Source: an uncultured Bacteroidales bacterium (lineage in GTDB: Bacteria; Bacteroidota; Bacteroidia; Bacteroidales; P3). From it: a DNA stretch of 64,000 nt. Made by a program: the position numbers and the translations under genes. The stretch covers positions 54,510 to 118,509 of the forward strand of contig ONJY01000008.1 of NCBI GenBank assembly GCA_900318275.1, in the 5' to 3' direction. Shown here piece by piece: positions 11,347-56,474 of this stretch; the first letter of the stretch is position 1; every line of letters starts with the position of its first letter. The notes below the pieces were generated by a model. That model saw nothing but the letters and a program-made list of their open reading frames with translations. It did no database searches and was not told the origin of the DNA.

Positions 11347-11376
11347 GTTGATACGTTGATACGTTGATTGTTGATA
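11347..11376. repeat. Degenerate gttgata repeat patch in the rnfD-rnfG gap
   Basis: Four near-identical units (gttgata at 11347, 11355 and 11370; gttgatt at 11363) are spaced 7-8 bp apart and fill most of the 43-bp gap between rnfD and rnfG. This is a slightly irregular member of the heptad-patch family. Confidence 0.7.
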
Positions 11377-11386
11377 TGTTAATGCG

Positions 11387-12346
11387 TCAGCAGGCGAAGC
11401 GTTGGGGCTTGCACCAGCGGTTGAGCAGCGGGGTGACACTGTTCATGATGAGGATGGCGAAGCTGACACCTTCGGGGTAGGAGCCCCAGTTGCGGATGAT
11501 GATGGTCAGCAGGCCGCAGCCCACACCGAAGATAAGCTGGCCGCTCTTGGCCATGGGGCTGGTGACCATGTCGGTGGCCATGAAGCAGGCGCCGAGCATG
11601 ATGCCGCCGGTGAGGATGGTCATCAGGGGGTCCATGAAGCTCTCGGGGTCGATGAGCCACAGGATGCCGCTGAAGACGAAGGCCGTGCCTATGAAGGCCA
11701 CGGGTATGTGCCAGGTGATGACCTTCTTCCAGAGCAGGTAGCAGGCGCCGAGCAGAATGGCTATGGCGCTCACCTCGCCCATCGAGCCGCCTATGTGGCC
11801 CAGGAAGGCGTCCATGAAGGTGACACCCTCGCCGAGGACGCCCTCCTTGAAGGCTCCCAGGGGCGTGGCGCCCGTAGGCACGTCGAAGGACATGGGGAAC
11901 AGGCCGCCGGCCACAGGCCACGTGGTCATCTGCACGGGGAAGGAGATGAGCAGGAACACACGGCCCACCAGGGCGGGGTTGAAGGGGTTCTTGCCCAGGC
12001 CGCCGAAGCTCATCTTGCCTACGCCGATGGCCACGAGGGCTCCTATCACCACTATCCATAGCATCTGTGCCGTGGCAGGCACGTTGAAGGCCAGCAGCAG
12101 ACCCGTGACTACGGCCGAGCCGTCGCCTATGGTGCTGGGCACCTTCATGATAAACTTCTCTATCAGCCACTGGAACAGCACGCAGGCTGCCACCGACACC
12201 AGACTCACCAGCAGGGCCGGCAGGCCGAAGTAGGCTATGGCGCAGAGCAAGGCAGGCACCAAGGCCATGTTGACGCGCCACATGATCTTTTTCGTCGACT
12301 CGTCGCTGTGCACGTGGGGCGAGCCCGATATATTCAGTAAATTCAT
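11387..12346 (-). CDS. rnfD: Rnf electron transport complex subunit D
   Basis: A 319-residue integral membrane subunit with about eight to nine hydrophobic segments. It carries the second covalent FMN site, visible as FDVPTGATPLGAFKEG (the Thr of TGAT). The N-terminus MNLLNISGSPHVHSDES is typical of RnfD/NqrB-like proteins. It sits between rnfC (81-bp gap containing two repeat patches) and rnfG (43-bp gap). The start at 12346 is preferred because upstream in-frame codons translate the repeat patches. Confidence 0.94.
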   Translation of the reverse strand: MNLLNISGSPHVHSDESTKKIMWRVNMALVPALLCAIAYFGLPALLVSLVSVAACVLFQWLIEKFIMKVPSTIGDGSAVVTGLLLAFNVPATAQMLWIVVIGALVAIGVGKMSFGGLGKNPFNPALVGRVFLLISFPVQMTTWPVAGGLFPMSFDVPTGATPLGAFKEGVLGEGVTFMDAFLGHIGGSMGEVSAIAILLGACYLLWKKVITWHIPVAFIGTAFVFSGILWLIDPESFMDPLMTILTGGIMLGACFMATDMVTSPMAKSGQLIFGVGCGLLTIIIRNWGSYPEGVSFAILIMNSVTPLLNRWCKPQRFAC

Positions 12347-12357
12347 ATAATTATTAT

Positions 12358-12426
12358 TTCTGGTTTTTGATTTCTGGTTTTTGAGTGGCCTTACGCCCAC
12401 TCATAACTCATAATTCATAACTCATA
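12358..12426. repeat. Two heptad patches in the rnfC-rnfD gap
   Basis: Patch one has four 7-bp units alternating ttctggt/ttttgat (12358-12385). Patch two has four units of actcata (12399-12426; third unit attcata). Together they make up most of the intergenic gap, and the second ends one base before the rnfC stop codon. Unit length is 7 bp in both, although the unit sequence differs. Confidence 0.8.
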
Positions 12427-12427
12427 A

Positions 12428-13756
12428 CTACTTCTTGGCCGCCATCATAGCGCGCACGCGGTTCTTGCCGAGGCGTATCTCGTCGGTGAGCGGCTTGTTG
12501 GCCGGGCAGCTGAAGAAGCAGCATCCGCACTCTATGCAGTCCAGTATGTTGTGCTCCTTCGACTCCTCGGTGCGGTTGTTCTTCACCAGCAGCGAGAAGA
12601 GGTAGGGCTCCAAACCCATGGGGCAGGCGCTGGCGCACTTGCCGCAGCGTATGCAGTTGGTCTCCGGCTGGCGGCGGGCCTCGCCCTCGTCCATCACCAG
12701 CACGCTGGCGTTACCCTTGACGGTGGGGGCATCGAGGTTCACCACAGCCTTGCCCATCATGGTGCCACCGCTGATGACCTTGCCTGTGGTCTCGGGCAGC
12801 TCGCCAATGGTGTGGCTGATAATCTCGTTGTAGGTGGTGCCGATGCGCACTATGCAGTTGTGCTGGCTCTTGAGTTTCTTGCCCGTGACGGTCAGTATGT
12901 TCTCGATGAGGGGCTTGTTCTTCTGCACGGCCTCGTAGACGGAGAAGCAGGTGCCCAGGTTGCTCACCACGCAGCCCACGTCGATGGGCAGCTTGCCGCT
13001 GGGGACGCGGCGGCCGGTGACGGCATTGATGAGTTGCTTCTCGGCGCCCTGCGGGTACTTCACCTTCAGCGGCTCAATGACAATGCCCTCGAAGGTCTTG
13101 GCCATCTCCTGCATCTTCTTGATGGCAAGGGGTTTGTTGCTCTCGATGCCAATGTAGGCGTTGGGTACACCCAGAGCCTTGCGCAGTATGCTCACGCCGA
13201 TGCACACCTCCTCGGCGTGCTCCATCATGACGCGGTAGTCGCTGGTCAGGTAGGGCTCGCACTCGGCGGCGTTGACAATCAGGTATTCGGCCTTCTTGCC
13301 CTCGGGTATGCTGTACTTGATGTGCGCGGGGAATGTGGCGCCGCCGAGGCCCACGATACCCATCTCCTTGAGCTTGGCAACAATCTCCTTGGGCTCCAGC
13401 GTGCACTCGCGTTTGATGTCGGGTGTGCGGTCGATGGTCTCCATCCACTCGTCACCCTCGACGTTGATGTAAACGGCGGGCTTGCTGATGCCGAAGGCGT
13501 CCTTGCAGGGCTCCACCTTTAGCACCGTGCCGCTCACAGGCGAATGGACGTTGGCGCACATGAAGGCCTGGGCCTCGCCTATCAGCTGACCCACCTTCAC
13601 CTTGTCGCCCTTCTGCACCACCGGCGTGGCCGGCGCACCGAGGTGCTGGTTCATCAGCACCACCATCTGCTTGCCAACGGGCACCACCTCGATGGCGGCG
13701 TCGTTGGATATCTTATTCTCTTCGGGGTGTACACCACCCATGCGGAATGTCTTCAT
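12428..13756 (-). CDS. rnfC: Rnf electron transport complex subunit C (NADH-side, two 4Fe-4S)
   Basis: A 442-residue peripheral subunit that carries the NAD(H)-reactive flavin site and two 4Fe-4S clusters. It shows GVHPEENK near the N-terminus, the NuoF-like IVGLGGATFPAHIKY, NAAECEPYLTSDYRVM, and the two cluster motifs CIRCGKCASACPMGLEP and CIECGCCFFSCPANKP near the C-terminus. The length is typical for the Bacteroidota version without the long C-terminal repeat tail of enterobacterial RnfC. It is separated from rnfB by a 27-bp gap made of heptad repeats. Confidence 0.96.
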   Translation of the reverse strand: MKTFRMGGVHPEENKISNDAAIEVVPVGKQMVVLMNQHLGAPATPVVQKGDKVKVGQLIGEAQAFMCANVHSPVSGTVLKVEPCKDAFGISKPAVYINVEGDEWMETIDRTPDIKRECTLEPKEIVAKLKEMGIVGLGGATFPAHIKYSIPEGKKAEYLIVNAAECEPYLTSDYRVMMEHAEEVCIGVSILRKALGVPNAYIGIESNKPLAIKKMQEMAKTFEGIVIEPLKVKYPQGAEKQLINAVTGRRVPSGKLPIDVGCVVSNLGTCFSVYEAVQKNKPLIENILTVTGKKLKSQHNCIVRIGTTYNEIISHTIGELPETTGKVISGGTMMGKAVVNLDAPTVKGNASVLVMDEGEARRQPETNCIRCGKCASACPMGLEPYLFSLLVKNNRTEESKEHNILDCIECGCCFFSCPANKPLTDEIRLGKNRVRAMMAAKK

Positions 13757-13791
13757 CAGTGTTCAGTGTTTTGTGTTCAGTGTTCAGTTCT
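13757..13791. repeat. Heptad patch in the rnfB-rnfC gap
   Basis: Five consecutive 7-bp units (cagtgtt, cagtgtt, ttgtgtt, cagtgtt, cagttct) fill the gap between rnfC and rnfB and run over the rnfB stop codon. Confidence 0.8.
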
Positions 13792-16414: not shown

Positions 16415-17494
16415 TCAGACGAAAAGGGCCGCGGCAATGCCGTCGGCGTGCAGAAGACCCTCGGCGGTAGGCACATAGTGACCTGCACTAAAGACAATCC
16501 AACCACAATCGACATAAGGCTGCATTCCACGGTGCAGCCTTTCTCTTTGCCCTTCGGACACGACGGCGACGGCGAGGCCGGCGGTGGTGCGCAAGGCCGT
16601 CATCAGCAGTTCATTGTAGGCGTCGGCCTCTGTGAGGCTCTCAGACTGCGGCGCTGCGCCTTGACAGTAGGCCACGGTGTCGGCGACATTCCACTGGCGA
16701 CGGTGTCCGTCGAAGCTGTGCGCCGCGGGGCCGAGGCCGAGATAGGGCGTGCGGTCCCAGTAGCGGCTGTTGTGACGGGAGCGGTAGCCCGGGCGGGCGT
16801 AGTTGCTCACCTCGTACTGCTCGAAGCCTTCGGCGGCAAGCCACTGCCCGACAGCGTGATACTGCCGCACGACCTCCTCGTCGCCGGGCAGCGCAACCCT
16901 CCCCTGCTCCACCTGCACGGCCAGCGCGGTGCCGGGCTCGACGGTGAGGGCATAGGCGGAGACGTGGGTGACGTAAGGCGGGAGGTGAAGGGTGAGCGGC
17001 GGAAGGGCGGGCAGGCCGTAGATGAAGTCGACGCTGATGTTGTCAAAGCCTGCGGCATGGGCGTTCTCGATGGCGTCGAGGGCCTGTCGGGCCGTGTGGC
17101 GGCGGTTGAGCATGCGGAGCATGCCGTCGTCAAGGCTCTGCACGCCGACACTCAGACGGTTGAAGAAGTGCAGCTCAGCAAGACCGCGCAGGTATTCGGG
17201 CGTCAGGTCCTCTGGATTAGCCTCGATAGTGGCTTCCTGCACGTGCGACACGTCGAACCAACGCCGCAGTCCGTCCACGATGCGGGCCAGCTCGGGCAGC
17301 GGAAGCAGCGAAGGAGTGCCACCGCCGAAGTAAACGGTCTGTATCCCATGCGGTTGCTCGCCGTGACGCCGTTCCATCTCACGCAACAGCCCATCGACAT
17401 AACGCTCCAATCTCAACTCACCGCTCTCCACTCTCGAGTAGAAGGCACAGTAGGTGCACTTGCGGTGACAGAACGGTACGTGTACGTATATCAT
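16415..17494 (-). CDS. HemW-like radical SAM protein (coproporphyrinogen III oxidase-like)
   Basis: A 359-residue radical SAM protein of the HemN/HemW family. The cluster motif is VPFCHRKCTYCAFYS (CX3CX2C), followed by VYFGGGTPSLL, EANPEDLTPEYL, RLSVGVQSLDDGMLRMLNRRH and ISVDFIYGLP. Family members lacking HemN-specific N-terminal residues act as heme chaperones (HemW) rather than oxidases; that is the likelier role. The start MIYVHVPF overlaps the meaB stop (ATGA). A 28-bp heptad patch is translated in frame at about residues 20-30 (the SGELRLE segment). Confidence 0.9.
   Translation of the reverse strand: MIYVHVPFCHRKCTYCAFYSRVESGELRLERYVDGLLREMERRHGEQPHGIQTVYFGGGTPSLLPLPELARIVDGLRRWFDVSHVQEATIEANPEDLTPEYLRGLAELHFFNRLSVGVQSLDDGMLRMLNRRHTARQALDAIENAHAAGFDNISVDFIYGLPALPPLTLHLPPYVTHVSAYALTVEPGTALAVQVEQGRVALPGDEEVVRQYHAVGQWLAAEGFEQYEVSNYARPGYRSRHNSRYWDRTPYLGLGPAAHSFDGHRRQWNVADTVAYCQGAAPQSESLTEADAYNELLMTALRTTAGLAVAVVSEGQRERLHRGMQPYVDCGWIVFSAGHYVPTAEGLLHADGIAAALFV
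17407..17434. repeat. Heptad patch inside the hemW-like gene
   Basis: Four consecutive 7-bp units (ccaatct, caactca, ccgctct, ccactct) are in phase, inside the coding sequence about 25 codons from the start. The sequence style matches the patch at 27975. Confidence 0.65.
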
Positions 17495-26053: not shown

Positions 26054-28057
26054 GTGAAAAAGATTCTGCTGATAATGATGGCGCTGGCTCTGGGTATGAC
26101 AGCCGCCGCGCAAAAAAAGACATACACGCTGGCCTCGCCCGACGGGCGGCTGGTGACGCACATCACCGCCGACTGGGAAGGCATGTCTTATGATCTCGTA
26201 TACGATGGCAAACCGCTGATGTCGCCGTCGCGCAGCGCCCTCTACTGTTCATCGCCCAAACGCGCGGTATATGGGACAATGTCGGTTAAGCGCGCCTTGC
26301 AACGCACCGTCGATGAAACCATAGCCTCGCCTTTCACCCGTCAGACTACGATGCGCAACCACTGCAACGAGCTGACGCTAAAACTGTATGAGGGCTTTTC
26401 TGTCGTCTTTCGCGCCTACAACGAGGGTGTGGCCTATCGCTATGTGTGGGATGGCATTCCGGGGGTGGTTACATACGAAGAGGTGCAACTAAACTTCACC
26501 AGCGACTGGACTGCCACCGCACCCTACGTCATCAGTTTCGACTCCACACGCCACGAGATACAGTACAGTACCTCGTTCGAGAACCACTACACCACAAAGC
26601 CCCTCTCGCAGCTCGACCCACGGCGCCTCTGCTTCCTGCCGTTGATGGTGCATTGTGACGGAGGAGTGAAGGTCTGCATCACCGAGTCGTCGCTGTGCGA
26701 CTACCCCGGCCTCTACCTGCACGGCACCGACGAGAGCGGCATTCTTGTGGGCGAGCACGCCCCGCTGCCCCGTCGTGTGGAGCAGGGAGGCCACAACAAC
26801 CTGCAGCTGATTGTCATGGAGCGCGAGGACTATATTGCCGAGATGGACCGCAGCAAGGTGTTCCCTTGGCGCATCATGATGGTGGGCACCGCCGAGGAGA
26901 TTGCGATGAACAACATGAGCTACCTGCTTGGGGAGCCCTCGAGGGTAGACGATATCAGCTGGATCAAGCCCGGCAAGGTGGCTTGGGATTGGTGGAATAA
27001 CTGGAATATCGGCAATGTGGATTTCAATGCCGGTATCAATAACGACACCTACAAGCACTACATCGACTTCGCTTCGCGCTACGGCATTGAATACGTCATC
27101 CTTGACGAGGGCTGGTCCGTGAACGGCAAGGCCGATCTCTTCCAGGTGGTGCCGGAGATAGACCTTCCGATGCTGGTGCAGTATGCCAAGGAGCGCAATG
27201 TCGGCATCATTCTCTGGGCCGGCTACTATGCCTTCGACCGCGAAATGGAGCATGTCTGTCAGCACTACAGCCAGATGGGTGTCAAAGGGTTCAAGGTTGA
27301 CTTCATGGACCGCGACGACCAGATAGTCACCGACTTCTACCGCCGCACAGCCGAGATGTGCGCCCGCTACCACCTGGTGGTGGACTTCCACGGCGCCTTC
27401 AAGCCTGCGGGCCTCAACCGCACCTATCCCAACGTGCTCAACTTCGAAGGCGTCTTCGGCCTCGAGCAGATGCGTTGGGCAGGGCTGGAATGGGACCAGA
27501 TGCGCTACGACTGCGAGATACCCTTCATCCGTCAGGTCGCCGGCCCGATGGACTACACCCAAGGGGCGATGCTCAACGGCTGCCGCAACAGCTTCCATCC
27601 TTCGTGGAACGAGCCCATGAGCCAGGGCACCCGCTGCCACCAGCTGGCGCTGTACATCGTGCTGGAGTCGCCGCTCAATATGCTGTGCGACTCACCGACC
27701 AACTATGAGAAGGAGCCAGACTACACACGTTTTGTGGCTGAGATACCCACGGTGTGGGACGAGACGCGTGTGCTGCAGGGCGAGGTGGGCGAGTATATCG
27801 TCACCGCCCGACGCAAAGGCGATACCTGGTACATAGGCGGCATCACCAACTGGACGGAACGCGATGTGGAAATTGCTCTGCCGGTTGTCGACCTGAACAT
27901 CGGTGGCAAAACGACAATTGAGTTGTATACCGACGGCACAAATGCCAATCGGCGGGGCAGCGACTACCGACACGCAACTTTCAACTCTCCGCTTTCCACT
28001 CTCCACTTGCACCTCGCCCCCGGTGGCGGCTTCGTGGCAAAGATTACAGCCGAATAA
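26054..28057 (+). CDS. Glycoside hydrolase family 97, retaining (alpha-galactosidase-type) clade
   Basis: A 667-residue exported GH97 enzyme (signal peptide MKKILLIMMALALGMTAAAQ; GTG start). GH97 has two mechanistic clades. Here the retaining signature is present: the nucleophile Asp in GFKVDFMDRDDQ (residue 416), and HGAFKPAGLNRTYPN with Gly where inverting enzymes have their Glu base. The later Glu of NFEGVFGLEQ is the acid/base candidate. Alpha-galactosidase is the known activity of this clade; the substrate here is inferred. A heptad patch is translated near the C-terminus (ATFNSPLSTLHLH). The 3' end overlaps the convergent EEP gene by 14 bp. Confidence 0.9.
   Translation: MKKILLIMMALALGMTAAAQKKTYTLASPDGRLVTHITADWEGMSYDLVYDGKPLMSPSRSALYCSSPKRAVYGTMSVKRALQRTVDETIASPFTRQTTMRNHCNELTLKLYEGFSVVFRAYNEGVAYRYVWDGIPGVVTYEEVQLNFTSDWTATAPYVISFDSTRHEIQYSTSFENHYTTKPLSQLDPRRLCFLPLMVHCDGGVKVCITESSLCDYPGLYLHGTDESGILVGEHAPLPRRVEQGGHNNLQLIVMEREDYIAEMDRSKVFPWRIMMVGTAEEIAMNNMSYLLGEPSRVDDISWIKPGKVAWDWWNNWNIGNVDFNAGINNDTYKHYIDFASRYGIEYVILDEGWSVNGKADLFQVVPEIDLPMLVQYAKERNVGIILWAGYYAFDREMEHVCQHYSQMGVKGFKVDFMDRDDQIVTDFYRRTAEMCARYHLVVDFHGAFKPAGLNRTYPNVLNFEGVFGLEQMRWAGLEWDQMRYDCEIPFIRQVAGPMDYTQGAMLNGCRNSFHPSWNEPMSQGTRCHQLALYIVLESPLNMLCDSPTNYEKEPDYTRFVAEIPTVWDETRVLQGEVGEYIVTARRKGDTWYIGGITNWTERDVEIALPVVDLNIGGKTTIELYTDGTNANRRGSDYRHATFNSPLSTLHLHLAPGGGFVAKITAE
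27975..28009. repeat. Heptad patch near the 3' end of the retaining GH97 gene
   Basis: Five 7-bp units (caacttt, caactct, ccgcttt, ccactct, ccacttg) are translated in frame about 16 codons before the stop. Confidence 0.7.
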
Positions 28058-28882: not shown

Positions 28883-31714
28883 TTATTTAAGAATGCTTGT
28901 GAGGTGATGGCGGCCGCTGCCGAGACTATGTGCCTCCCAACCGCAATGGCTTGTGGGCAGCATCACGGTGGCCGTAGTGTTGGGGGGAATGACGATGTCC
29001 CACTCGAAGCGGTTACCCTTGTGACGCCAGTTGCTTTCTATACGCCCATATACAGAGTTGTATGAGCAGTTGACGTTGTAGAGGCCTTCGAGGGGATAGG
29101 GTTGCAGCCAGAATGAGTTGTTGCCCGATGTGCTACGTATGCCGCCGAGGTATTGGTAGTACCAGATGATAAGGTCGCCAAGCAGCATCACATGGTTACC
29201 GCTGTTCATCGACGGGTCGCCCGTGTCGCCGTTCCAAAGTTCCCAGATGGTGGTGGCACCCCGCTTGACCATATACCCCCAAGAGGGGTAGGTGGTGTCA
29301 GTGGTGAGTTTCAGAGCAAGATCACCCCTGCCGTATTCGGTGAGGGTACGCATAAGGTGCTGGATGCCGACGACACCCGTAGCGACGTGACCGCCGAAGT
29401 CGTTCTCTATTTTGTCGACGATGTTGTCGAACACCTTGTGTTCGAGCCTCTCCGAGGGTACCATGCCGAATGCCAGCGGCAGGAGGTTGGCGGTGGCGGT
29501 GTTGTTGCTGTAACAGCCGCGAACGGTGTCGAGGTAGCGGGCGTTATAAGCGTTTCTGACGAAGTCCATCTCTTCCCGGAAATATACTGTGTCGGCATAT
29601 TTGCCAATCTTGGCCGCAAAGCCTTTCATTATCTTGCAGTATTGATAGTAGTAGGGCGTGGAGAGGTTGGCGGGCCAGGTCATGCGGTTGGTGTCGCGGG
29701 TGTGTATCAATTCGGGACTCTCGGGCGGCACGCACCAGTCACCATAGGTGTCGCGTATCAGTATGCCATCCTTGAGGTAGTATTTCCTCATGTGGAGCAT
29801 CCAGCGCTTCATAGCGTCGTAGTGCTGCTCGACGGGACGCATATCACCATAGCGCTGGAGGAGCATATCGGCCACGGTGATGAAAGCGCCCGGCCAGGTC
29901 ATATTGTCGGTATAGTTGCGCCAGTAGGCGGGTGCGACGTCGGGCAGCGAGCCGTTCTCCCACTGGCTGTCTTCGAGGTCCTGCAGCCACTTGGCGTAGA
30001 GGCGGTGGTTGTCGAAGATGAAGCTCTCGCCGTAGCATCCGGTGGTGCGGTCACCCGTCCATCCCATGCGCTCGTCGCGCTGGGGGCAGTCGGTGGGCAT
30101 ACTGCGGTAGTTGCCACGGATGCCCCAGTATGCGTTGCGGTGCACGGCGTTGATGACGTCGTTGTCGGTCTCGAAGGTGGATGTGGAGGCCATCTGGTCG
30201 TAGAGGACGAGGCCTGTGAAGTCGCTGAGACTGGGCTTGCTGCCTTCGGGCAGGCCGCTGATTTCCACGTAGCGGAAGCCGTGGTAGACAAATTGAAAAT
30301 TGAGAATTGAAAATTGAGATTTGTCTGCCGCGATGTAGCGGTCTGTGCATTCGGCGGAGCGCAGGTTGTCGGTGTAGAGGGCGCTGTCGGCGGTGAGCAG
30401 TTCTGCATAACGGAGGGTTATGGTGTCCCCGTTTTTCAATTTTAAGTTTTCAATTTTCAATTCAAGTGTACCCACCATATTCTGCCCCATATCGAGAATC
30501 CATTTGTCGCCCTTGCGGAAGATGGCCTTGGGGGTGAGGTGCTCCATCACGCGGATGTTGGGGTTGGGCTGCGGCGTCAGTTCGTATTCCAAACGCTGGG
30601 CTGCGATCTCGACGCTGTCGGGAAAAGGCATGGAGGCGTCGTACTTGTCGTCGCGGCGTTTCCAGCGGGGGTTGAAGCGGTCCTCGAGGTTCATGTTCTG
30701 ACGGTCGTAATCGACTGTCACATCGTCCCATTCGCTGTCGTCATAATGTGGCATCGTCCAGTCTCCAAGGTCGAGGCGCGCGTCGTAGGTCTCGCCGTCG
30801 AACTCGTTAGCCTTGCGTATGGGACCCCGGTTGGTAATCTTCCATCCTCCTTTGCAGCTGGTGAAGGTATCCGACGTGCCATCCTTATAAAACACCTCCA
30901 GCTGCATCAGCAGCTGCGGACGGCCGTAATGGGCGGCGTGGTTGATACCGCACCATTCCAGGTAGTTGGTGTCGTGGCGCACGGTGGTGAAGCGGCCGGG
31001 GGCAAGGATGACACCCACGGCGTTATGCACGCTGTGGTTCAACATGTCGGTCACATCGTAAGCGTTGAAATAGACGCGCCGGGTGTAGTCGCTCAGCGCC
31101 GGCTTCAGCAGCTCGTCGGGGGCCACTTCGCGACCATTGATATAGGCTGAGTAGACTCCTAATCCGCTGATATAGAGTCGTGCCCGCTCGATATACTTCT
31201 TGTCGAGTGGAAACTCTGTGCGCAGATAGCGGGCGGCCACCACGGTATGACCCTCTATCTTGTCGTCCGCATAGTCGCGCCCTATCCAGTGGGCGCGCCA
31301 GTCGCTACTGTCGAGCAGGCTGAGCTCAAAGTACTGCACCGGGCTCTTGAGCTTTTTGCTCCTGCCGTTGCCGTAGGTCACAGTGGTGTAGACACGCCAC
31401 CAGCAGCGGTCGCGGCTCTTCAGCGTCTTGCCGGCGTAGGGGATGTATAGCATCTGCGAAGTGTCGACGCTATGCGAGTCCCACAGGTCGCCCTCGCCGC
31501 GGCGGGCCTTCTCCTCGCTGCTGGCCACGATGACGCGGTAGCTCGTCTGCATGACATTATCCACACGGGCCTCATAATTCCAACTGAAGCGCGGCGTAGC
31601 GGTGGCTAACGGCATACTTCCGTCCTGCATCTCAACGGTGAGGTTTGTGATCTCCACCTTGCTGCCGCAGGCGGCAAGAATCAATGTGAACAGTATAGGA
31701 ACAAGATGTTTCAT
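28883..31714 (-). CDS. Glycoside hydrolase family 78 lipoprotein, probable alpha-L-rhamnosidase
   Basis: A 943-residue lipoprotein (MKHLVPILFTLILAACGSK) with the full GH78 domain order: an N-terminal fibronectin-like region, jelly-roll domains (WRAHWIGRDYA, NGREVAPDELLKPALSDY), the (alpha/alpha)6 barrel with TDCPQRDERMGWTGDR, and a C-terminal beta domain. The general-acid Glu of RDERMGW is residue 548, and a Glu candidate for the base lies in TTIWELWNGDTGDPS. It removes terminal rhamnose if it follows the family. Two heptad patches are translated in frame (KIENLKLKNG and SQFSILNFQF). It is 4 bp downstream of the frameshifted GH78 paralogue. Confidence 0.93.
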   Translation of the reverse strand: MKHLVPILFTLILAACGSKVEITNLTVEMQDGSMPLATATPRFSWNYEARVDNVMQTSYRVIVASSEEKARRGEGDLWDSHSVDTSQMLYIPYAGKTLKSRDRCWWRVYTTVTYGNGRSKKLKSPVQYFELSLLDSSDWRAHWIGRDYADDKIEGHTVVAARYLRTEFPLDKKYIERARLYISGLGVYSAYINGREVAPDELLKPALSDYTRRVYFNAYDVTDMLNHSVHNAVGVILAPGRFTTVRHDTNYLEWCGINHAAHYGRPQLLMQLEVFYKDGTSDTFTSCKGGWKITNRGPIRKANEFDGETYDARLDLGDWTMPHYDDSEWDDVTVDYDRQNMNLEDRFNPRWKRRDDKYDASMPFPDSVEIAAQRLEYELTPQPNPNIRVMEHLTPKAIFRKGDKWILDMGQNMVGTLELKIENLKLKNGDTITLRYAELLTADSALYTDNLRSAECTDRYIAADKSQFSILNFQFVYHGFRYVEISGLPEGSKPSLSDFTGLVLYDQMASTSTFETDNDVINAVHRNAYWGIRGNYRSMPTDCPQRDERMGWTGDRTTGCYGESFIFDNHRLYAKWLQDLEDSQWENGSLPDVAPAYWRNYTDNMTWPGAFITVADMLLQRYGDMRPVEQHYDAMKRWMLHMRKYYLKDGILIRDTYGDWCVPPESPELIHTRDTNRMTWPANLSTPYYYQYCKIMKGFAAKIGKYADTVYFREEMDFVRNAYNARYLDTVRGCYSNNTATANLLPLAFGMVPSERLEHKVFDNIVDKIENDFGGHVATGVVGIQHLMRTLTEYGRGDLALKLTTDTTYPSWGYMVKRGATTIWELWNGDTGDPSMNSGNHVMLLGDLIIWYYQYLGGIRSTSGNNSFWLQPYPLEGLYNVNCSYNSVYGRIESNWRHKGNRFEWDIVIPPNTTATVMLPTSHCGWEAHSLGSGRHHLTSILK
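30291..30318. repeat. Heptad patch inside GH78 (aattgaa units)
   Basis: Four exact or near-exact units (aattgaa, aattgag, aattgaa, aattgag) lie in coding sequence just before the YHGFRYVEI strand. Confidence 0.8.
30436..30463. repeat. Second heptad patch inside GH78 (tcaattt units)
   Basis: Four units (tcaattt, taagttt, tcaattt, tcaattc) lie 118 bp from the previous patch, in the same reading frame. They code for a Lys/Leu/Asn-rich stretch before GDTITLRYAELL. Confidence 0.8.
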
Positions 31715-31718
31715 ATAT

Positions 31719-33943
31719 TCAGCGTTTAATGTTCAATGTCCATTGTCCGGCACCGAGCGTGCGCTCGTCCGGGGTGTCTGGGAACGCGGTGGCTGTGGTG
31801 CCTTCGGGGACGGTGACCTTCAGCGTGTCGCCGCTGACTTCCACACGTATGTCGCCGTATTGTGTCGGCTTGGTGCAGCGAACCCACTCTACACCCTCGC
31901 ATGGCTGCGGGTCGATGAAGAAATGCTTGTATCCCGGCTTTTCAGGGTCGGGGCGTATGCCGGCCAGCGCCTGGTAGAACCAGATACCGATGCCATTGTA
32001 GCAGTTGTGCACACGACTGCGGTCCTCCTTGCCGGGACGGCCGCAATCCCACGACTCCCAAGTGGTGGTGGCACCTTGGTTTATCATGTTGAGGTAGCCG
32101 GGATAATCCTCCTGCCGTAATATGGTGGCCATAAGGTCTGTCTGCCGTTCGCGGATGCACCACTCCGTGAATATGGGCACGCCCATGAGGCCGGCGGCGA
32201 TATGGTCGCGATACTTCCCGTGACAGTCCTGGATAAGCCGTGCCTTCACCGCAGCGGCGGTGGCGCTGTCGGGCGGTATGCCCACCAGCAGGGCGTAGCA
32301 TTGGTCGAGCGGCGTGCCGTTGGCGTAGGTGTGGCTTTCGGGGTGGTAGAAATGGCGGTGGATGGCATCGTTGAGGTTCTGCCGCCATTCAGCATAATGC
32401 CGAGCGTCGTCGGGATTTCCTGTCATGCGGGCCATCTGCACCATATCGGCCAGGCAGTCGCTGATGAAGCAGCTGCTGGCGTGCAGCACGCTCTCGCCAC
32501 CTTTGTCGACCCCTTGGCTCCACGAGGTCGCCGACCACAGTTCGGGGACAGCCCAGTCGCCGAGAAACCAAGAGTGCCGCTCATTGTCGGGCCAAGGCTG
32601 CAGGATATAATCCTCGCTGTGCCGCTCGATGTACTCCAGCCAGCGCCTCATGTCGTCGTAGTGGCGGTAGATGAGCGAGCGGTCACCATAGTTAAGGTAG
32701 GTGCGCCACGGGGCTTTGACAATGAAGCCCTGCCAATAGGGACCGCCGCCCGTGCGGAATCGCCGTCGGGCTGCATGGCGTCGGCCCAGGCCTGCATCCA
32801 GTTGGCATAGGTGGAGCGCACATCCCAAAGGGTCTGCAGGGTGTTGGTAGAGGAGTTGCCGTCGCCGCCATAGCCCATGCGCTCGATATGCGGGCAGTCG
32901 ACCATATAACCGCTGAAGGTGAGGCAGCTGAGGGTATATTTCACCATATCGTGAATGGCGTTCAGGCGTGGGTCGGAGCATTCGAAGGTGGCGCCGCTGT
33001 AGGGGTCTATAGTGCTAATCTGCAAGGCGCTGGCATGTCCCACACCGGCCCCTTTCACTCTCACATAGCGGAACGAGTGCATCTGGAAGCGGTTGCGGAA
33101 GATATTGTACGGGGCGCGGTCGGAGACGAAGATGTCGGTCTCGGTGAAAGGAGGCTTTGCCTCCAGATGGTCGAGGTACTCCATTGTCACCGCCTGCCCC
33201 GAATCCATCAGGCCATATACGGCATAGAACCATCCAGTCACCACGCGGCCGAAGTCAATCAGCGTCGAGCTGTCGGACAACTTCATTTGCACGACGGGAT
33301 CAAGGGTGTCGACAATGCGGTTGCCCTCAAACTCTTGCCACGAGACGATGATGTCCTTGGCGTCATATACAGTTGCCGGGCGCCAACGCTCACGTATCCG
33401 CGCGTCATATCGCTCGCCGCCGAACTGCATCGGCTGCCAGCTGCCCGTGTAGCTGTAAGGGCTGGGCGATGCCTCCCAAGTGCTGTCGGTCTTGAGTATT
33501 TCGTATATCAATCCGCATTCGCCATCGGATATACTCTTTTCTACAACTGCTTTTACAACCGCCGAAGTGCCGTAGATGCGCCCCCACCCCTGCCCCAACC
33601 ACAGCATCAGCTCGTTGTCGCCCTCGTGGATGAGGTTGGTGATGTCGTAGGTTACCTCCAGCGCACGCTTGTCGAGCTGCGACACAGCGGGTTGCATCAC
33701 CCGGTCGCCCACCTTCGTGCCGTTGACATACACCTCGTGGTAACCCAGCGAGGCAACGCCAACAGAGTAAGTGACCTGTTGGAGAGATGTCTGCCGCAAC
33801 TCACCGACATCCACATGGAACGTCTTCCGCAGCATAGGTGTCTCCGCCCACCCACTGTCGGTGCGGCAGCCGATAAACACTTGCGCCTGTGACGTCAGAG
33901 CCGTCAGGACCAGCATCCAGAATATGACCGAAAACCTCTTCAT
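31719..33943 (-). pseudogene. GH78-type rhamnosidase paralogue broken by a frameshift
   Basis: Two overlapping reading frames together encode one GH78-like exported protein (signal peptide MKRFSVIFWMLVLTALTSQA; start 33943). The first frame covers the jelly-roll domains and the barrel start (VDCPHIERMGYGGDGNS, then WADAMQPDGD). The second resumes with TGGGPYWQGFIVKAPWRTYL and runs through TTTWESWDCG to the C-terminal domain. The break lies in the sequence around 32757-32765, where one missing base would restore a continuous protein of about 740 residues. No other stops are visible, so either the lesion is recent or it is a sequencing or assembly error. The conserved Glu of the HIERMG motif is retained. 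Confidence 0.85.
31724..31751. repeat. Heptad patch at the 3' end of the GH78 pseudogene
   Basis: Four 7-bp units (gtttaat, gttcaat, gtccatt, gtccggc) form the last codons of the frameshifted GH78 gene, ending 5 bp from its stop codon. Confidence 0.65.
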
Positions 33944-33983: not shown

Positions 33984-34250
33984 GCATATTTTTCGAGATG
34001 CGGAAAGAATATCTCTGCCAGCCGCCAAAAAGCCGATAACAAGCCTTTTCTACCGCCACATCGACGATACTTCAACGATACTTCAACGATACATCAACGA
34101 TACGCATCGTCGAAATATCGTTGAAGTATCGTTGAAGTATCGTTGAAATGAAGGTGCTAGGAGTGCGGAAAGAGCCGTATACAAGCAACCCCACACGACG
34201 CCTCTTGGCATTGTGCGGGGTTGAATACGGTTCGGTTGTCGGGCGGTTGG
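33944..34250. other. Intergenic region upstream of the GH78 pair
   Basis: This 307-bp region has no gene. It holds the duplicated -7 box/leader at its left side, the 34070-34148 hairpin in the middle, and a second loose palindrome around 34181-34240 (gccgtatacaagcaacccc near ggggttgaatacggttcgg), which may terminate transcription from the SusB-type GH97 gene. Confidence 0.6.
34070..34148. repeat. Mirrored array: three 11-bp units facing three inverted 11-bp units
   Basis: Left arm units cttcaacgata start at 34070, 34081 and 34092 (third begins cat). Right arm units tatcgttgaag start at 34116, 34127 and 34138. The arms are reverse complements over about 27 bp and would form a long hairpin. 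There is no T-run on either side, and the unit length equals one helical turn. Confidence 0.88.
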
Positions 34251-36641
34251 CTACCGCTCGCGGATGCTGACGGCGAAGCCGCCGCAGGGGGCCATCTTGA
34301 GCTTGAGGACGGTCTTGCTGGTGACGGTCTTCTTGGTGATGGTGTAGGCTTTGGGGTTATAGCCTTCTTTGCGGGCGGCCTCCCATCCCATCTTTACGTC
34401 CGACACATAGCCGCTGGCGTCCTTGGCGTCGGCATAGATGGTGGCTTCGTATTTGACGCCGGGCTTGAGGAAGTCGAGGCGGACGGAGAACTCGCGGGCG
34501 TTCTCGTCGGTGACGCCGCCGATGTACCACGTATCCTTAGGTTGATAGGTTGATAAGTCGATATGCTGCACGGTGTCGGGGAGGGCATAGACGAAGCGTG
34601 CGGTGTTGCTGATAACGCCTTTCATGCCGTCGGGTAGCGTCCCTACCCCTTCAGCGGCCTTGTTCAGCGAGGAGAGCTTGGGTCGGCGGGCGGTGACGAT
34701 GTAGTCGCCCGGCTCGGCGTAGAGGTAGATGCTGGTATCCCAGTCGACGGCAACGTCCTTGATGAACTGGAAGGCGTCGAGGTGGGGCTCGTAGTGCTCG
34801 GGAAAATCGGCGGCCATCTGGAGCGGCGAGTAGAAGGTGACGTAGAGGCCCAGCTGGTTGCAGATGGTGTGGCGCATGAGGTCGTGGTTCCATGGGGCGT
34901 TCTTCTCCATGTCTGTCTCGAAGATGCCGGGTGTGTAATCCATGGGGCCGCCCTGCAGGCGTGTGAAAGGCAGGATGGTGGTGTGGCCGGGATTGATGCG
35001 TCCGCGGAACTCGGTACCCATAGCGCTCTCGTTGCCAATCATATTTGGCCACGTGCGGCAGAGGCCCGTGGGGCGCACAGCCTCGTGGGCGTTGACCATG
35101 ATGTGGTGCTTGGCAGCCTCGACGATGGCGCGGTGGTAGTGGTTGATGATGGGCTGGCTGTAGTGGTGTTCGCCGTGGGGGACGATGTGGCCGACATAGC
35201 CGCTCTTGACGGCGTCGTAGCCGTACTGGTTCATGAGGTTGTAGGCGCGCTCCATGAAGCGCTCGTAGTTGGTCACCGACGAGCTGCTCTCGTGGTGCAT
35301 TATGAGGCGGATGCCTTTGCTGTGGGCGTATTCGTTGAGAGCCGGCAGGTCGAAGTCGGGATAGGGGGTGAGGAAGTCGAAGACATAGTCCTTGTCCTTG
35401 CCGTACCAGTCTTCCCAGCCGATGTTCCAACCCTCGATGAGGAGGGCGTCGAAGCCATGCTTGGCAGCGAAGTCTATGTAGCGGCGCACGTTGGCGTTGT
35501 TGGCTCCGTGACGGCCATGGGGCTTGGCTTTGCTGTAGTCGGTGATGGCGCCCTGCAGCGACGGCGGCAGCGACGGGTCGCCGGGCAGGCGCACCGAGGG
35601 GAAGTCGTTGGTGTAGCCCCATGTGCTGTGGTCGCTGATCATTTCCCACCACACGCCCATGTACTTGACAGGATGTATCCAGCTGACATCCTCCAAGGCA
35701 CAGGGCTCGTTGAGGTTGAGTATGAGGCGCGAGCGCAGCACGTCGGTGGCCTTTTCACAGACCTGCACGGTGCGCCAAGGAGAGTAGCAAGGCGAGGTGA
35801 GGCGGCCGACATAGCCGGTGGCATCGGGCGTGAGGTGCACCTTCAGCGTTGAGCGGTCGGGGTCAAGGTCGAGGTTCATGGTTGGGAAATCCAGTACCGC
35901 AGCCTCATGGATGTTGACATACAAGCCGTCGTCTGTCTTCATCTGCAAGGCGGTCTGCAAACCGGTGTCGGAGAAGCTCTTCCAGGGCCAACCGCCGCTT
36001 ATGTGAGGGCTGTCGTGCAGCTCGCGCACTTGGCTGAGGCGGCTCTGGGTGTAGTTGAACTCCTGCGTGTCGTAGTCGCCGGGTATCCACCAGGCCATAT
36101 GGTCGCCAGCCATTCTGAACTCCGTCAGCTCGCCGGTGAGCCAGAAGGTGACGAGGGAATTTTGAATTCTGAATTCTGAATTCTGAATATCCTGCGGGAA
36201 CTCGTAGCGGAAGCCCAGGCCGTCGTCGTAGAGACGGAAGCGGACGACCATCACCGTCGGCTTGTCGACACGCTTGCCTTCGTGGTCGAGGTAGAAGTCC
36301 TGCATCAAGGTGACCGCCAACTCGTTGTAGTGGTTGCGTATGTTGGCCTCCTCGCCCCACACGGGCTGCCACACTTCGTCGAAGCTGGTGGTATCCACCC
36401 TCGCGATGCGGAAACGGCTGGCCAAGTCGCTCTTGCGCCACTCAAGTGTGAAGCCCATGCGTGAGGGCAGCACCACATGCTTGCCGTCGCGCTTCAGTTC
36501 GTAGTGAGGCACTCCGTCGCGGAGGTAGAACGTGGCCTCCATGCGCCCGTCGGGGCTCTTCAGTCGCTCGTCTGCCGACTGGCCATAGGTGGCGGAAAGG
36601 GCCATCAGGCCTATCAAAAGCGTGAAAAATAAGCGTTTCAT
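34251..36641 (-). CDS. Glycoside hydrolase family 97, inverting SusB-type alpha-glucosidase clade
   Basis: A 796-residue exported GH97 enzyme (MKRLFFTLLIGLMALSATYG). Inverting-clade residues are all present with the right spacing: the Glu of IMHHESSSS (residue 451), the Glu of NAHEAVRPTGLCRTWPN (520) and the Glu of ESAMGTEF (544), spaced as in SusB E439, E508 and E532. The retaining nucleophile position is Gly (KSGYVG). It should act on alpha-glucosides. A perfect 7-bp tandem repeat is translated in an N-terminal loop (QNSEFRIQNS). It is directly downstream of the purL terminator, and no separate promoter is evident. Confidence 0.93.
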   Translation of the reverse strand: MKRLFFTLLIGLMALSATYGQSADERLKSPDGRMEATFYLRDGVPHYELKRDGKHVVLPSRMGFTLEWRKSDLASRFRIARVDTTSFDEVWQPVWGEEANIRNHYNELAVTLMQDFYLDHEGKRVDKPTVMVVRFRLYDDGLGFRYEFPQDIQNSEFRIQNSLVTFWLTGELTEFRMAGDHMAWWIPGDYDTQEFNYTQSRLSQVRELHDSPHISGGWPWKSFSDTGLQTALQMKTDDGLYVNIHEAAVLDFPTMNLDLDPDRSTLKVHLTPDATGYVGRLTSPCYSPWRTVQVCEKATDVLRSRLILNLNEPCALEDVSWIHPVKYMGVWWEMISDHSTWGYTNDFPSVRLPGDPSLPPSLQGAITDYSKAKPHGRHGANNANVRRYIDFAAKHGFDALLIEGWNIGWEDWYGKDKDYVFDFLTPYPDFDLPALNEYAHSKGIRLIMHHESSSSVTNYERFMERAYNLMNQYGYDAVKSGYVGHIVPHGEHHYSQPIINHYHRAIVEAAKHHIMVNAHEAVRPTGLCRTWPNMIGNESAMGTEFRGRINPGHTTILPFTRLQGGPMDYTPGIFETDMEKNAPWNHDLMRHTICNQLGLYVTFYSPLQMAADFPEHYEPHLDAFQFIKDVAVDWDTSIYLYAEPGDYIVTARRPKLSSLNKAAEGVGTLPDGMKGVISNTARFVYALPDTVQHIDLSTYQPKDTWYIGGVTDENAREFSVRLDFLKPGVKYEATIYADAKDASGYVSDVKMGWEAARKEGYNPKAYTITKKTVTSKTVLKLKMAPCGGFAVSIRER
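34538..34561. repeat. 8-bp tandem patch in the SusB-type GH97 gene
   Basis: Three 8-bp units (taggttga, taggttga, taagtcga) are translated in frame (STYQPK segment). The core resembles the gttgata patch in the rnf operon. Confidence 0.55.
36163..36190. repeat. Heptad patch (tgaattc units) in the SusB-type GH97 gene
   Basis: Three perfect tgaattc units and a fourth tgaatat unit occur in coding sequence about 155 codons from the start, in a loop just before VTFWLTGELTEF. This is the least diverged patch in the window. Confidence 0.88.
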
Positions 36642-52087: not shown

Positions 52088-54205
52088 ATGAACATTACTG
52101 ACCTGATTGTCGAATTGCTTGAAAATGGGCAGAAAGTAGAGATGCCCGGAATCGGAACATTGGACACCGTAGTGCGCAGCGCACACCACGACCCGAACAC
52201 GCGTACCTACTACCCCGCCAGCCGCGTCATTGACTACAGCGCAGAGACCACCGGCGACAACGGGATCGTCAAGACCATCGCCGAACGCGAATGCGTGAGC
52301 GAAGACGTGGCTAAGCAGATGTGGCTCAACTACATCGACGCCCTCACCGACAAGGTGAAGCGCAGCGGCCACCACAACTTCGGCAAGCTGGGTTCGCTGA
52401 CCTGCGACGACAAGCGCACCTTCGGCTTCAAGATGGCTGAAGGCTTTGTGCTCGATGCCGGCAACAAAGGCGAGATGCCCATCGAGGAGGTCAAGATATA
52501 CAACCACGACAACGAGGAAGACCCCTTCGCCCGCTTCGACGAAGCCGAGGCTGCTCCGACTACCGCCGAACCCGCAGCCGAACCTGCGGCCGAAGAGATG
52601 GCGGCACCCGAGCCCGCAGCCGAGACTCAACCCGAAGCCCAGGAGGAGCATTGGGACGAGAGCCTCCGTCAGCTCGAAGACCTCGAGAAAGAGAAGCCCG
52701 TCGTCGACCCCAAGGCCGAAGCACGTGCCGAGAAGGAGCGCCTGAAAGCCGAGAAGAAGGCCGAGGAAGAGCGCCTCAAGCGGGAGAAGAAAGCCGCCGA
52801 AGAGCAACGCTACGAAGAAGAGCTGCTGGCCAAGCAGCGCAAGGATGCCGAAAAGCGCGAGGCCGAGGAGAAGCGCAAAGCCGCCGAAGAGCTGCGCAAA
52901 GCCGAGAAACGCGCCGAAGAGGAGCGCATCAAGGCCGAGAAGAAAGCCGAAGCCGGCAGGCTGAAAGCTGAGAAGGAGGCCGAAAAGGAGCGCATCAAAG
53001 CCGAGAAGAAAGCCGCCGCATTGGCAGCAATGGCCGCCCACGAGAGCGCCAAAGCCGAAGCCGCAGCACGCAGCGAGGCCGAGAAAGAGGCCGCCAGGCA
53101 GGCCGCCATACAGGCCGCCCGCGAGGCCAAGGAGCGCAAAGAAGCCGAGAAGGAGGCCGCCCGCATGGAGAAACAACGCCGCAAGGAGGAAGCCGCCAAC
53201 GCCAAGGCCGAAGCCAAAGAGCGCAAACGCGCCGAGAAGGAAGCCGCCAAGCAGGCCAAGAAGAACAAAGAGCTGGCCGACAAGCTGACGGCACAGCCCG
53301 CCAACGAGGGCGAGGACAACGGCGAGAAGAAGCGCCGCAGCCTGTGGCCGATAGTGCTCATCCTGCTCTGCCTGCTGCTCTTGATAGGTGGTGGCTACTA
53401 CCTGCTGAGCGGCAAGAAGAACGCAGCCCCCACGACGACAGCCAAGAACACGACGCACATCAACGTCGGCGCGGTCAACGCCTTCACCTACAACCCCGAC
53501 ATGATCAACTACTCGGGCCGCGAGATAGAGCAGCAGAGCGACCTGGTGTGCCGCTTCATGAGCGACTACATCGGCCAGTATCTTGCCGACCGCAACTTCA
53601 GCGGCGCACGCGCACCGATGATGGACCGCATACGCCAGTATGCCAACGAGCGCCTCGGACAGATGCTCGGCGACCGCTTCGCCGTACAGCGCCTGATACC
53701 GTACAACGACTATATCTACAACTACAACGAGCCCTTCATGAAGGGTAGCTACGCCCGCAGCTGTCGCGGCAAGGTGCAGAGCGAACTGATGAACTACCGC
53801 TCGCTCGACGACATGCTCTACCGCCTGGCCGACGAGTTGGGCCTTCAGCCCGACGGCAACGGCCGCAAGACCGCAGCCGAGGTGCAGCAGGTTAAGGCCG
53901 ACGAGAAGAAGGCCATAGAGCGCCGCCGTCAGCAGGCTCAGAACGGCGAGGCCCCGACATACGTGTACGTGGAGAAGGGCAGCAAGTTGGGTTACGACCT
54001 GATAGCAGGCTTCTACCTGAACAAGACCACCGCCGCCAAGATGACCGCACGCCTGCACGAGATGGGCTGCGACGCCTACATCATAGAGTTCAGCGACATG
54101 TACTACGTCAGCATGGGCAGCGCCAACAGCCAGACGGCCGCCGAAGCACTCTACAAGCACGTGAAGAGCTGGTACGACGGCGATGTGGTGATAAAGAAGT
54201 GGTAA
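52088..54205 (+). CDS. HU-domain, coiled-coil, transmembrane, SPOR-domain protein
   Basis: A 705-residue protein with four parts. Residues 1-130 form an HU-CCDC81-type DNA-binding-like fold (MPGIGTLDTVVRSAHH, NFGKLGSLTCDDKRTFGF). A Pro/Ala/Glu linker follows, then a long Lys/Ala/Glu coiled coil (about 210-400). A single membrane helix at about 420-438 (PIVLILLCLLLLIGGGYYLL) leads to a periplasmic region ending in a SPOR domain (about 625-700: YVYVEKGSKLGYDLIAGFYL, DMYYVSMGSAN). The arrangement would link a cytoplasmic HU fold to septal peptidoglycan. It follows kdsB by 21 bp. Confidence 0.88.
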   Translation: MNITDLIVELLENGQKVEMPGIGTLDTVVRSAHHDPNTRTYYPASRVIDYSAETTGDNGIVKTIAERECVSEDVAKQMWLNYIDALTDKVKRSGHHNFGKLGSLTCDDKRTFGFKMAEGFVLDAGNKGEMPIEEVKIYNHDNEEDPFARFDEAEAAPTTAEPAAEPAAEEMAAPEPAAETQPEAQEEHWDESLRQLEDLEKEKPVVDPKAEARAEKERLKAEKKAEEERLKREKKAAEEQRYEEELLAKQRKDAEKREAEEKRKAAEELRKAEKRAEEERIKAEKKAEAGRLKAEKEAEKERIKAEKKAAALAAMAAHESAKAEAAARSEAEKEAARQAAIQAAREAKERKEAEKEAARMEKQRRKEEAANAKAEAKERKRAEKEAAKQAKKNKELADKLTAQPANEGEDNGEKKRRSLWPIVLILLCLLLLIGGGYYLLSGKKNAAPTTTAKNTTHINVGAVNAFTYNPDMINYSGREIEQQSDLVCRFMSDYIGQYLADRNFSGARAPMMDRIRQYANERLGQMLGDRFAVQRLIPYNDYIYNYNEPFMKGSYARSCRGKVQSELMNYRSLDDMLYRLADELGLQPDGNGRKTAAEVQQVKADEKKAIERRRQQAQNGEAPTYVYVEKGSKLGYDLIAGFYLNKTTAAKMTARLHEMGCDAYIIEFSDMYYVSMGSANSQTAAEALYKHVKSWYDGDVVIKKW

Positions 54206-54232
54206 GTGGGAAGTGATAAGTGAATAGTTGAT
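54198..54232. repeat. Heptad patch joining the HU/SPOR gene end to trmB
   Basis: Five 7-bp units (agtggta, agtggga, agtgata, agtgaat, agttgat) span from the stop codon of the HU/SPOR gene to the ATG of trmB. Confidence 0.8.
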
Positions 54233-54944: not shown

Positions 54945-55685
54945 ATGTCAGGACACAACAAATGGTCTAAGATTAAGAGAGCCAAAGGAGCAGCCGATGC
55001 CAAGCGCTCGAAACAGTGGAGCAACATTCTGAAACAGGTCACCATCGCCGTGCGCGAAGGTGGTGCCGACCCCGACAGCAACCCCCGCCTGCGTCTGCTC
55101 ATCCAGAACGCCCGTGGCTGCAACATGCCCAAGGACACCCTGCAGCGCTCTATCAACAAGGCCAACGACAAGGACGCCGCCCAGATGATGGAGCTCACCT
55201 TCGAGTGCCACGTCAATCACGGCATAGCCCTCTTCATCGAGGCCCTCTCGGACAACAACAACCGCACCGTTGCCAACGTGAAGAGCATCATGAACAAGAA
55301 CGGCGGCACGCTGGAGACCAACGGCAGCCTCGCCTTCCTCTTCACCCGCAAGGGCGTCTTCGTGGTGCCCCGCAAGCCCGAGATGGACGTTGAAGAACTC
55401 GAGATGGAGCTCATCGACGGCGGCCTGGAAGAGATGGAGGTCGACGACGAGTACCTGACCCTCTACACCGCCTACGAGGACTTCGGCAACATGGTGAAGA
55501 TGCTGGAGCAGAAAGGCATCGAGTGCGAGAGCGCCGAGCTGCAGCGCATCCCCAACACCCTGCGCCAGGTCGACACCGAGACCATCCGCAAGGTCATGAA
55601 GATCATCGGCATCCTCGAGGAGGACGAAGACGTCACCAACGTCTACCACGACATGGAGATCCCCGACGACTTCGAGGAAGAATAA
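54945..55685 (+). CDS. YebC/PmpR family protein
   Basis: A 246-residue three-domain protein beginning SGHNKWSKIKRAKGAADAKR, the family hallmark, with DSNPRLRLLIQNARGCNMPK, FIEALSDNNNRTVANVK and a C-terminal acidic region. YebC proteins were long called transcription regulators; recent work on the family links them to ribosome function at proline-rich stalls. Which applies here cannot be decided from sequence. It is flanked by heptad patches and is between trmB and rsmI. Confidence 0.95.
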   Translation: MSGHNKWSKIKRAKGAADAKRSKQWSNILKQVTIAVREGGADPDSNPRLRLLIQNARGCNMPKDTLQRSINKANDKDAAQMMELTFECHVNHGIALFIEALSDNNNRTVANVKSIMNKNGGTLETNGSLAFLFTRKGVFVVPRKPEMDVEELEMELIDGGLEEMEVDDEYLTLYTAYEDFGNMVKMLEQKGIECESAELQRIPNTLRQVDTETIRKVMKIIGILEEDEDVTNVYHDMEIPDDFEEE

Positions 55686-55693
55686 AGTTTAGT

Positions 55694-55761
55694 GATTATG
55701 GGTTATAGGTTATAGACGCTTGCGCAACAGACACTATAACCTTTAACCCATAACCTATAAC
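55694..55761. repeat. Facing heptad patches between yebC and rsmI
   Basis: Left patch units gattatg, ggttata, ggttata (55694-55714); right patch units ctataac, ctttaac, ccataac, ctataac (55734-55761). The right patch is the reverse complement of the left in style, so the pair can fold into a hairpin (ggttatag against ctataacc). No T-run follows. Confidence 0.75.
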
Positions 55762-55769
55762 CAGAAATA

Positions 55770-56463: not shown

Positions 56464-56474
56464 AAACCGCCTCC

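Follow-up and report, generated by a model that had tools for sequence, protein, structure and literature searches.

The heptanucleotide STRR repeats of cyanobacteria are short tandem 7-mers in intergenic DNA. Heptamer repeats with the unit TAACTGA occur in marine Beggiatoaceae, Cyanobacteria, and five Bacteroidetes (MacGregor, 2015; PMC4679880), and slippage has been proposed for heptanucleotide long simple sequence repeats, in which length 7 is favored over neighboring lengths (Mrazek, 2007, via PMC4679880). A high density of short tandem repeats has been reported for Bacteroidota. Among palindromes, REP, REPIN, and BIME elements with RAYTs are short and dispersed, lying between genes and sometimes in-frame inside genes (PMC3733652; PMC6006769). 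Template-switch (quasipalindrome) mutation, in which one arm is rewritten from the other, comes with a proposed explanation for stem asymmetry, i.e. G-C over C-G and U-A over A-U (Monttinen and Loytynoja, 2022; PMC8794818). Reports of heptamer repeats in bacteria go back years, but have not come with an established cause.

The window, i.e. the whole 64-kb stretch analyzed here, belongs to a draft genome (2.28 Mb in 56 contigs; the own genome, G000), the RnfC of which is 78–92% identical in 11 named loci from uncultured gut Bacteroidales and one Candidatus Colimorpha, which probably places the genus among them. The arrays are short 7-base tandem stretches in the gaps of this group of gut bacteria, many of them arms of hairpins that come, go, and change fast between related species. 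A first-pass annotation of the window had described a family of period-7 patches and named a lack of excess over shuffled sequence as its refutation; the excess is real: segments with at least 16 of 21 lag matches numbered 11 at lag 7, compared with 0.03 per local dinucleotide shuffle, 0–2 at lags 4–6, 8–10, 12, and 13, six at lag 11, and seven at lag 14. A second detector found 12 lag-7 arrays in the window at a score of at least 9 (0.8 per shuffle) and 10 at a score of at least 11 (0.0 per shuffle; 10 shuffles). At a score of at least 12, 262 kb of other own contigs yielded 27 arrays (0 in one shuffle), with four, four, three, and four at lags 6, 8, 9, and 10 and 21 at lag 11; 140 kb of G022 yielded 24 and 20 same-genus rnf regions 43, none remaining after shuffling. 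Other families are poorer in arrays (17 in 361 kb; 35 in 1.12 Mb), which are concentrated in some genomes. The tandem 7-bp units are thus beyond chance, as in heptanucleotide simple sequence repeats. Arrays of 11-bp units are also present (window 34058–34147; L031 4517–4612; L033 14828–14895), in longer stretches of intergenic DNA; their units vary, and they often form inverted pairs side by side.

The arrays of the window are as follows.

11347–11380, reverse strand: rnfD-rnfG gap, octad array of ACGTATCA type in gene sense, partly 7-bp, with a lag-8 score of 14 at 11347–11368
12356–12429, reverse strand: rnfC-rnfD gap, array at 12399–12429 adjoining the rnfC stop, a loop, and a 14-bp-unit array at 12356–12384 nearer rnfD
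13756–13788, reverse strand: rnfB-rnfC gap, ACTGAAC-type array directly before the rnfC start
17417–17435, reverse strand: HemW-like gene, weak 7-bp array with a lag-7 score of 7.0 (previously annotated as the 17407 patch)
27975–28007, forward strand: 7-bp array close to the 3′ end of predicted gene 26054–28057
30290–30462, reverse strand: GH78 rhamnosidase gene, two inverted arrays (30290–30323 and 30433–30462) ~110 bp apart
31724–31748, reverse strand: 7-bp array just 5′ of the GH78 gene, identical in sequence in G022
36157–36188, reverse strand: GH97 gene, in-frame ATTCAGA-type array, absent from G022
54197–54223, forward strand: tandem gap filled by an AAGTGAT-type array, longer in G022
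55686–55769, forward strand: yebC-rsmI gap, hairpin whose loop is ACGCTTGCGCAACAGACA and whose arms consist of GGTTATA and TATAACC units
56430–56467, forward strand: rsmI-mgtC-like gap, AACTCAT-type array
58575–58611, reverse strand: ACTTTGA/CTTGAAT array inside ORF 58297–58842 or at its 5′ end

Pfam supports RnfG, RnfD, RnfC, RnfB, a radical-SAM/HemN-type protein, a GH78 rhamnosidase, a GH97 enzyme, YebC, a TP_methylase, and an MgtC protein at these positions. We read the radical-SAM/HemN-type protein as HemW and the TP_methylase as RsmI. An Rfam search of the window at the gathering threshold returned one tRNA only and no family matched by the arrays. Of the 15 patches originally counted, 12 reach a score of at least 9, whereas those at 11347, 12356, and 17407 do not. 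The 11347 patch, in a gap near-identical in G022, has mainly period 8, and this octad variant, already seen in the first-pass annotation, belongs to the same phenomenon. The 12356 patch, with its 14-bp unit, has 15 of 21 lag-7 matches; the halves of the rnfC-rnfD gap look like an imperfect hairpin, and its predicted fold is unexceptional (z −0.58). At the rnfB-rnfC gap G022 has a longer hairpin of different sequence, and the rsmI and mgtC-like genes overlap in G009, G022, G080, G008, and G035. The sole exceptional fold in the window is that of 55597–55857, containing the yebC-rsmI hairpin (z −8.07; others −2.31 to 1.88). A conserved patch length of 28–35 bp, as had been claimed, is not general: the 53 own arrays at a score of at least 9 span 17–120 bp (median 30), with 22 inside that range. 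The description of the patches as gap-filling stands in that array density in the own sample (score of at least 12) is far higher in noncoding DNA (595 per Mb, 24 arrays) than in coding DNA (42 per Mb, 12 arrays; split by our own simple gene finder), but 12 of these 36 arrays lie in predicted coding sequence. Inverted pairing, a shared unit frame, dispersed hairpin copies, and arrays inside coding genes were all absent from that annotation.

Unit sequence varies between patches, as had been stated: 23 kinds were found among 31 own arrays, so that there is no one dominant genome-wide unit, and none of the 23 is TAACTGA. Aligned by rotation and strand, the units nevertheless have a common frame, [AC]A[CT]T followed by three free bases, with 5.02 bits of information over 138 arrays (3.98, sd 0.10, for composition-matched intergenic 7-mers) and 4.54 bits over 61 distinct units (3.86, sd 0.12). 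Sharing of units with at most one mismatch is only modestly higher within genomes (12.7%) than between them (8.0%; shuffled labels 8.6%, sd 1.1). Species range from array-rich (G022, G064) to array-free (G017, G028). Across the 59 genomes of the genus, AACTNNNAACTNNNAACT counts span 0 to 324 per genome, read against a backward-read control that is not a clean background, being itself common because TCAANNN heptads form another unit class. At least one AACTNNNAACTNNNAACT match is found in 185 of 296 genomes of the phylum, many with tens; single matches mean little, since ~0.4 per genome are expected at equal base frequencies. With at most three mismatches, AACTCATAACTCATAACT gave 321 matches in G000, 354 in G022, 375 in G002, 34 in G070, and 10 in G009 (controls 99, 53, 109, 8, and 29, respectively). 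Outside arrays, TATCTTTGC-type words, which are probably the Bacteroidetes promoter element, are the top over-represented 8-mers of noncoding DNA in the genus, e.g. AAAGATAC (74 vs 2.9).

Many arrays are paired. A reverse complement within 150 bp, scoring beyond all 40 flank shuffles, accompanies 39 of 191 arrays (~5 expected), and direct copies by the identical rule accompany 16. The pairing has a fixed polarity: the G-rich arm lies 5′ in 22 of 25 pairs from the reverse-complement scan (22:3), and a second scan found this order in 25 of 27 hairpins and the reverse in two. By context, with G009 and further loci included, the ratio is 20:0 in tandem gaps, 9:0 in coding sequence (not all independent), 4:2 in convergent and divergent gaps, and 1:1 at contig edges; other families give 7:2 with one tie, their single coding case being reverse. 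Inverted repeats without arrays are unbiased (47:42, 25 ties), and hairpins of 11-bp arrays lean the opposite way (4:14, 10 ties). The polarity may stem from shared descent rather than from 27 independent events. Selection at start codons is disfavored as its origin because the coding-sequence hairpins of the genus are also polar, albeit with the one reverse coding case in another family. Stem pairs comprise 177 G-C vs 26 C-G and 226 T-A vs 201 A-T. Stem mismatches in transcript sense are 15 of G.U type and 30 of A.C type (9 and 10, respectively, at the rsmI junction); with no G.U bias there is no sign of selection at the RNA level, and RNA-structure selection was rejected.

No universal conserved loop was found across 49 loops. 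At zero mismatches CTGCGTAGC occurs seven times vs 0.1 in shuffled noncoding DNA, and GCGTAGCC (3 vs 1.8) and GCGTCAGCC (1 vs 0.8) show no enrichment. The commonest 6-base words of the 49 loops, CGTCAG (8) and AGCCAC (9), lie far above their own expectations of 0.6 and 0.8 but no higher than the top word counts that shuffles reach (mean 6.7, maximum 9).

Comparison of the gap 5′ of rsmI in 30 species (lengths are approximate where the rsmI start codon is) shows 0–11 bp in 13, 48 bp in one, and 59–183 bp in 16. Of these 16 long gaps, 12 have lag-7 arrays, two lag-8 arrays, and two neither; self-complementarity exceeds all 40 shuffles in 11, ties in G011, and does not beat the shuffles in G076, G033, G066, and G032. 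Near relatives carry mutually different, self-matching hairpins at this one junction, or none: for eight gap types, as assigned by us, mean self-complementarity is 23.1, and 7.3 between types (maximum 13.5; permutation p 5e-5, one row per type). On the flanking-gene tree, in which 14 of 27 inner branches are well supported, species with a hairpin gap pair with species lacking a gap (G022 89 bp/G009 0; G002 98/G069 0; G000 84/G070 0; G014 88/G008 0), and at least nine changes of presence and at least 12 of type are required. The hairpins of G000 and G002 are clearly related though their clades differ, so that an ancient hairpin lost several times, or exchange between lineages, is just as possible as several separate gains. 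An AATAA target duplication can be read around the G000 hairpin, but is not claimed because other species have merely similar A-rich flanks. Three species have a different common hairpin 5′ of rsmI (GTTGCGTCGGATT...AATCCGACGCAAC; L198, L200, L203), in two of them beside long octad arrays. Aligning orthologous gaps, a check suggested in the first-pass annotation, was done between species; presence or absence and change of unit are plain, but steps of 7 are weak, making up 29 of 770 indels within arrays and 119 of 4942 elsewhere (p 0.037). For octad arrays, the corresponding steps of 8 are not significant (4 of 217 vs 79 of 4942). In the gap 3′ of rsmI, G069 and G079 differ by one 7-bp unit.

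Arrays within genes also differ between species, with array-coded loops in place of the ordinary loops of relatives. At the GH97 site (36157; 30 loci compared), heptads of several kinds are present in G000, G007, G065, and G024, and octads, on our reading, in G070; G022 and G009 have no array, and distant species have ordinary loops. The two GH78 sites, ~110 bp apart, pair within species: the pairing value averages 21.7 for the heptads of G000, G007, and G024 and is 19.2 for the octads of G077, compared with cross values of 4–8 (permutation over 22 species, p 5e-5). As is characteristic of template switching, both arms differ together between relatives, at the rsmI gaps as in GH78; the exceptions are G005 and G082, which have octads at one GH78 site and no partner at the other. 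Where the HemW-like gene of G016, G019, G020, G026, and G027 has an ordinary segment, that of G014, G002, G079, and G018 has array-coded peptides in its stead (the motif used for searching being present in 12 of 30 loci only). Among loci L268–L297, this loop has 9-bp repeats, by eye, in G035 and G009, and heptad arrays in G014, G002, and G079. All three enzyme loops show what looks like in-frame rewriting by repeat arrays.

With the G000 rsmI hairpin as query, matches were found in 28 of 59 genomes, several with tens each. GGTTATNGACGCTTGCGCA, a 19-base arm end plus loop, is exact at six places on six G035 contigs, at three in G002, and at one each in G000 and G018; with at most two mismatches there are 10 in G035, 10 in G002, and 34 in total in 12 genomes, vs three in 59 genomes for the reversed control. 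The copies read lie in different gene contexts, save one common to G002 and G069, and two of five G035 copies carry another heptad as their right arm. The first-pass annotation had described the patches as not one dispersed element copied around. Given the exact string on six contigs, this fails for at least this hairpin family. As for a dispersed conserved palindrome of REP kind, one arm-plus-loop string is dispersed, and the 49 loops have no universal sequence. The data show copying, loop included, for one hairpin family only.

We therefore favor, at a probability of about one half, the explanation that the patches belong to a family of palindromic elements dispersed through Bacteroidales genomes, which evolves fast and is copied at the DNA level. 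The full element would be a hairpin in which a GC-rich loop separates a G-rich arm, built of 7-bp or sometimes 8-bp units, from its C-rich complement, often spanning the gap entirely between stop and start codons or sitting in-frame in a protein loop; solitary arrays would be half-elements, or would have grown or been copied from other arrays. Spread might occur by ectopic template switching, gene conversion, or transposition, with arm complementarity maintained by local template switching and copy number set by slippage, and selection would merely filter the sites that tolerate elements; we think that no function is needed. Against this explanation are the restriction of observed copying to one family, the varied units, the 5 of 16 rsmI gaps not above shuffles, the lack of a universal loop, G005 and G082 being out of step, and the negative mover searches (Y1, RVT_1). 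More tentative is the proposal of a new class of mobile palindromes, with stems of 7- or 8-bp units, spread through Bacteroidales by a DNA-copying activity that also overwrites protein loops and rewrites both arms together. The hairpin form, polarity, dispersed copies, and joint arm turnover make of an odd repeat statistic a testable copying process, in a group whose near relatives differ at single junctions.

Independent local slippage, as proposed by Mrazek and colleagues, would have a polymerase prone to duplicating 7-bp stretches, with arrays born of local sequence. It accommodates a unit length that is fixed while sequence varies, the many unit kinds per genome, and the whole-unit difference between G069 and G079, but not the polar inverted arms, their joint difference, the dispersed arm-plus-loop copies, or a unit frame common beyond composition, and the between-species steps of 7 are weak. 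Because of the inverted arms and the dispersed loop, slippage as sole cause is disfavored, and we consider it unlikely. That the arrays are binding sites of a translational or transcriptional regulator 5′ of start codons, a role put forward earlier for TAACTGA repeats (MacGregor, 2015), would fit the many arrays ending a few bases from a start codon and the common [AC]A[CT]T-NNN frame. It appears improbable given that units turn over at one junction, where the gap is absent in 13 of 30 species, that arrays also occur inside enzymes, that start-adjoining arrays occur in both orientations (by eye), and that RNA-structure selection left no sign.

Movement of REP-like elements by a Y1 (RAYT/IS200-type) transposase could explain dispersed palindromes in gaps with a load varying by species, and the GTGG...CCAC ends of some tips resemble the ‘double foot’ REPs described for the Bacteroidetes-rich subclass 2.4. 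However, Y1 counts do not correlate with array load over the 59 genomes (rho −0.12, p 0.36), Y1 being present in 12 of 19 genomes with a load of at least 150 and in six of nine with a load of at most 10. No cognate Y1 was found in G000, G013, or G064, the latter two belonging to the eight genomes with a load of at least 150 and completeness of at least 96%, which argues against Y1 as a requirement. Array density beside Y1 genes (17.4 per 100 kb) is within the genus range (samples 10–17), and several of the Y1 genes at the 10 of 22 loci inspected carry their own, different palindromes, so that this route seems quite improbable. Such short palindromes in Y1 flanks (L341, L342, L345, L348), e.g. 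CCCCAGACTGCCGTCTGGGG or GACCCCGTAGGGGTC, are unlike the heptad hairpins. If G-rich heptads were added from a template, in the manner of telomerase, at both 3′ ends of a break that is then joined, this would yield the fixed polarity (25:2) and is in keeping with hairpins present or absent at one junction, yet the many units per genome do not suggest one template. Reverse transcriptase counts lean the other way from array load (rho −0.23, p 0.08; present in 6 of 19 genomes with a load of at least 150 and 4 of 9 with a load of at most 10), and an RVT_1 search had no hit in five of the eight richest near-complete genomes (load of at least 150, completeness of at least 96%; G001, G002, G022, G026, G064). 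These absences largely refute the telomerase-like route, which we regard as very remote, and reverse transcriptase, like Y1, is not supported as a required mover. Since neither tracks load, DNA-level copying by replication or recombination enzymes is favored.

The likeness in kind to other bacterial heptamer repeats, drawn in the first-pass annotation, agrees with what is in print. Like TAACTGA repeats (PMC4679880), the present arrays consist of 7-mers in tandem, lie for the most part between genes, and in many cases closely precede a start codon, and the TAACTGA unit itself fits the AACT-NNN frame; like the repeats of Mrazek (2007), they favor unit length 7 over its neighbors. The latter are described as direct, and inverted arms, dispersal, and joint turnover are outside that description. 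The present elements resemble REPs as short dispersed palindromes between genes, sometimes in-frame in genes (PMC3733652; PMC6006769), but differ in having arms with a period of 7 or 8 bp and a sequence that varies from copy to copy, and in not requiring a Y1 enzyme. With respect to the asymmetry of PMC8794818, G-C exceeds C-G (177:26) but T-A barely exceeds A-T (226:201), and periodic arms are not part of template-switch mutation as set out there. In our searches of the open-licence literature we found no description of heptad hairpins, or of the present combination, which is not proof of absence. TAACTGA repeats have one unit per genome and are mostly direct, with a single inverted case (PMC4679880), whereas the arrays described here have many units, pair into hairpins of fixed polarity with loops that are dispersed, and occur in coding sequence as well. 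Bacterial heptamer repeats, REPs, and template-switch hairpins are thus already known, and it is the hairpin form of the heptad arrays and its spread that look new.
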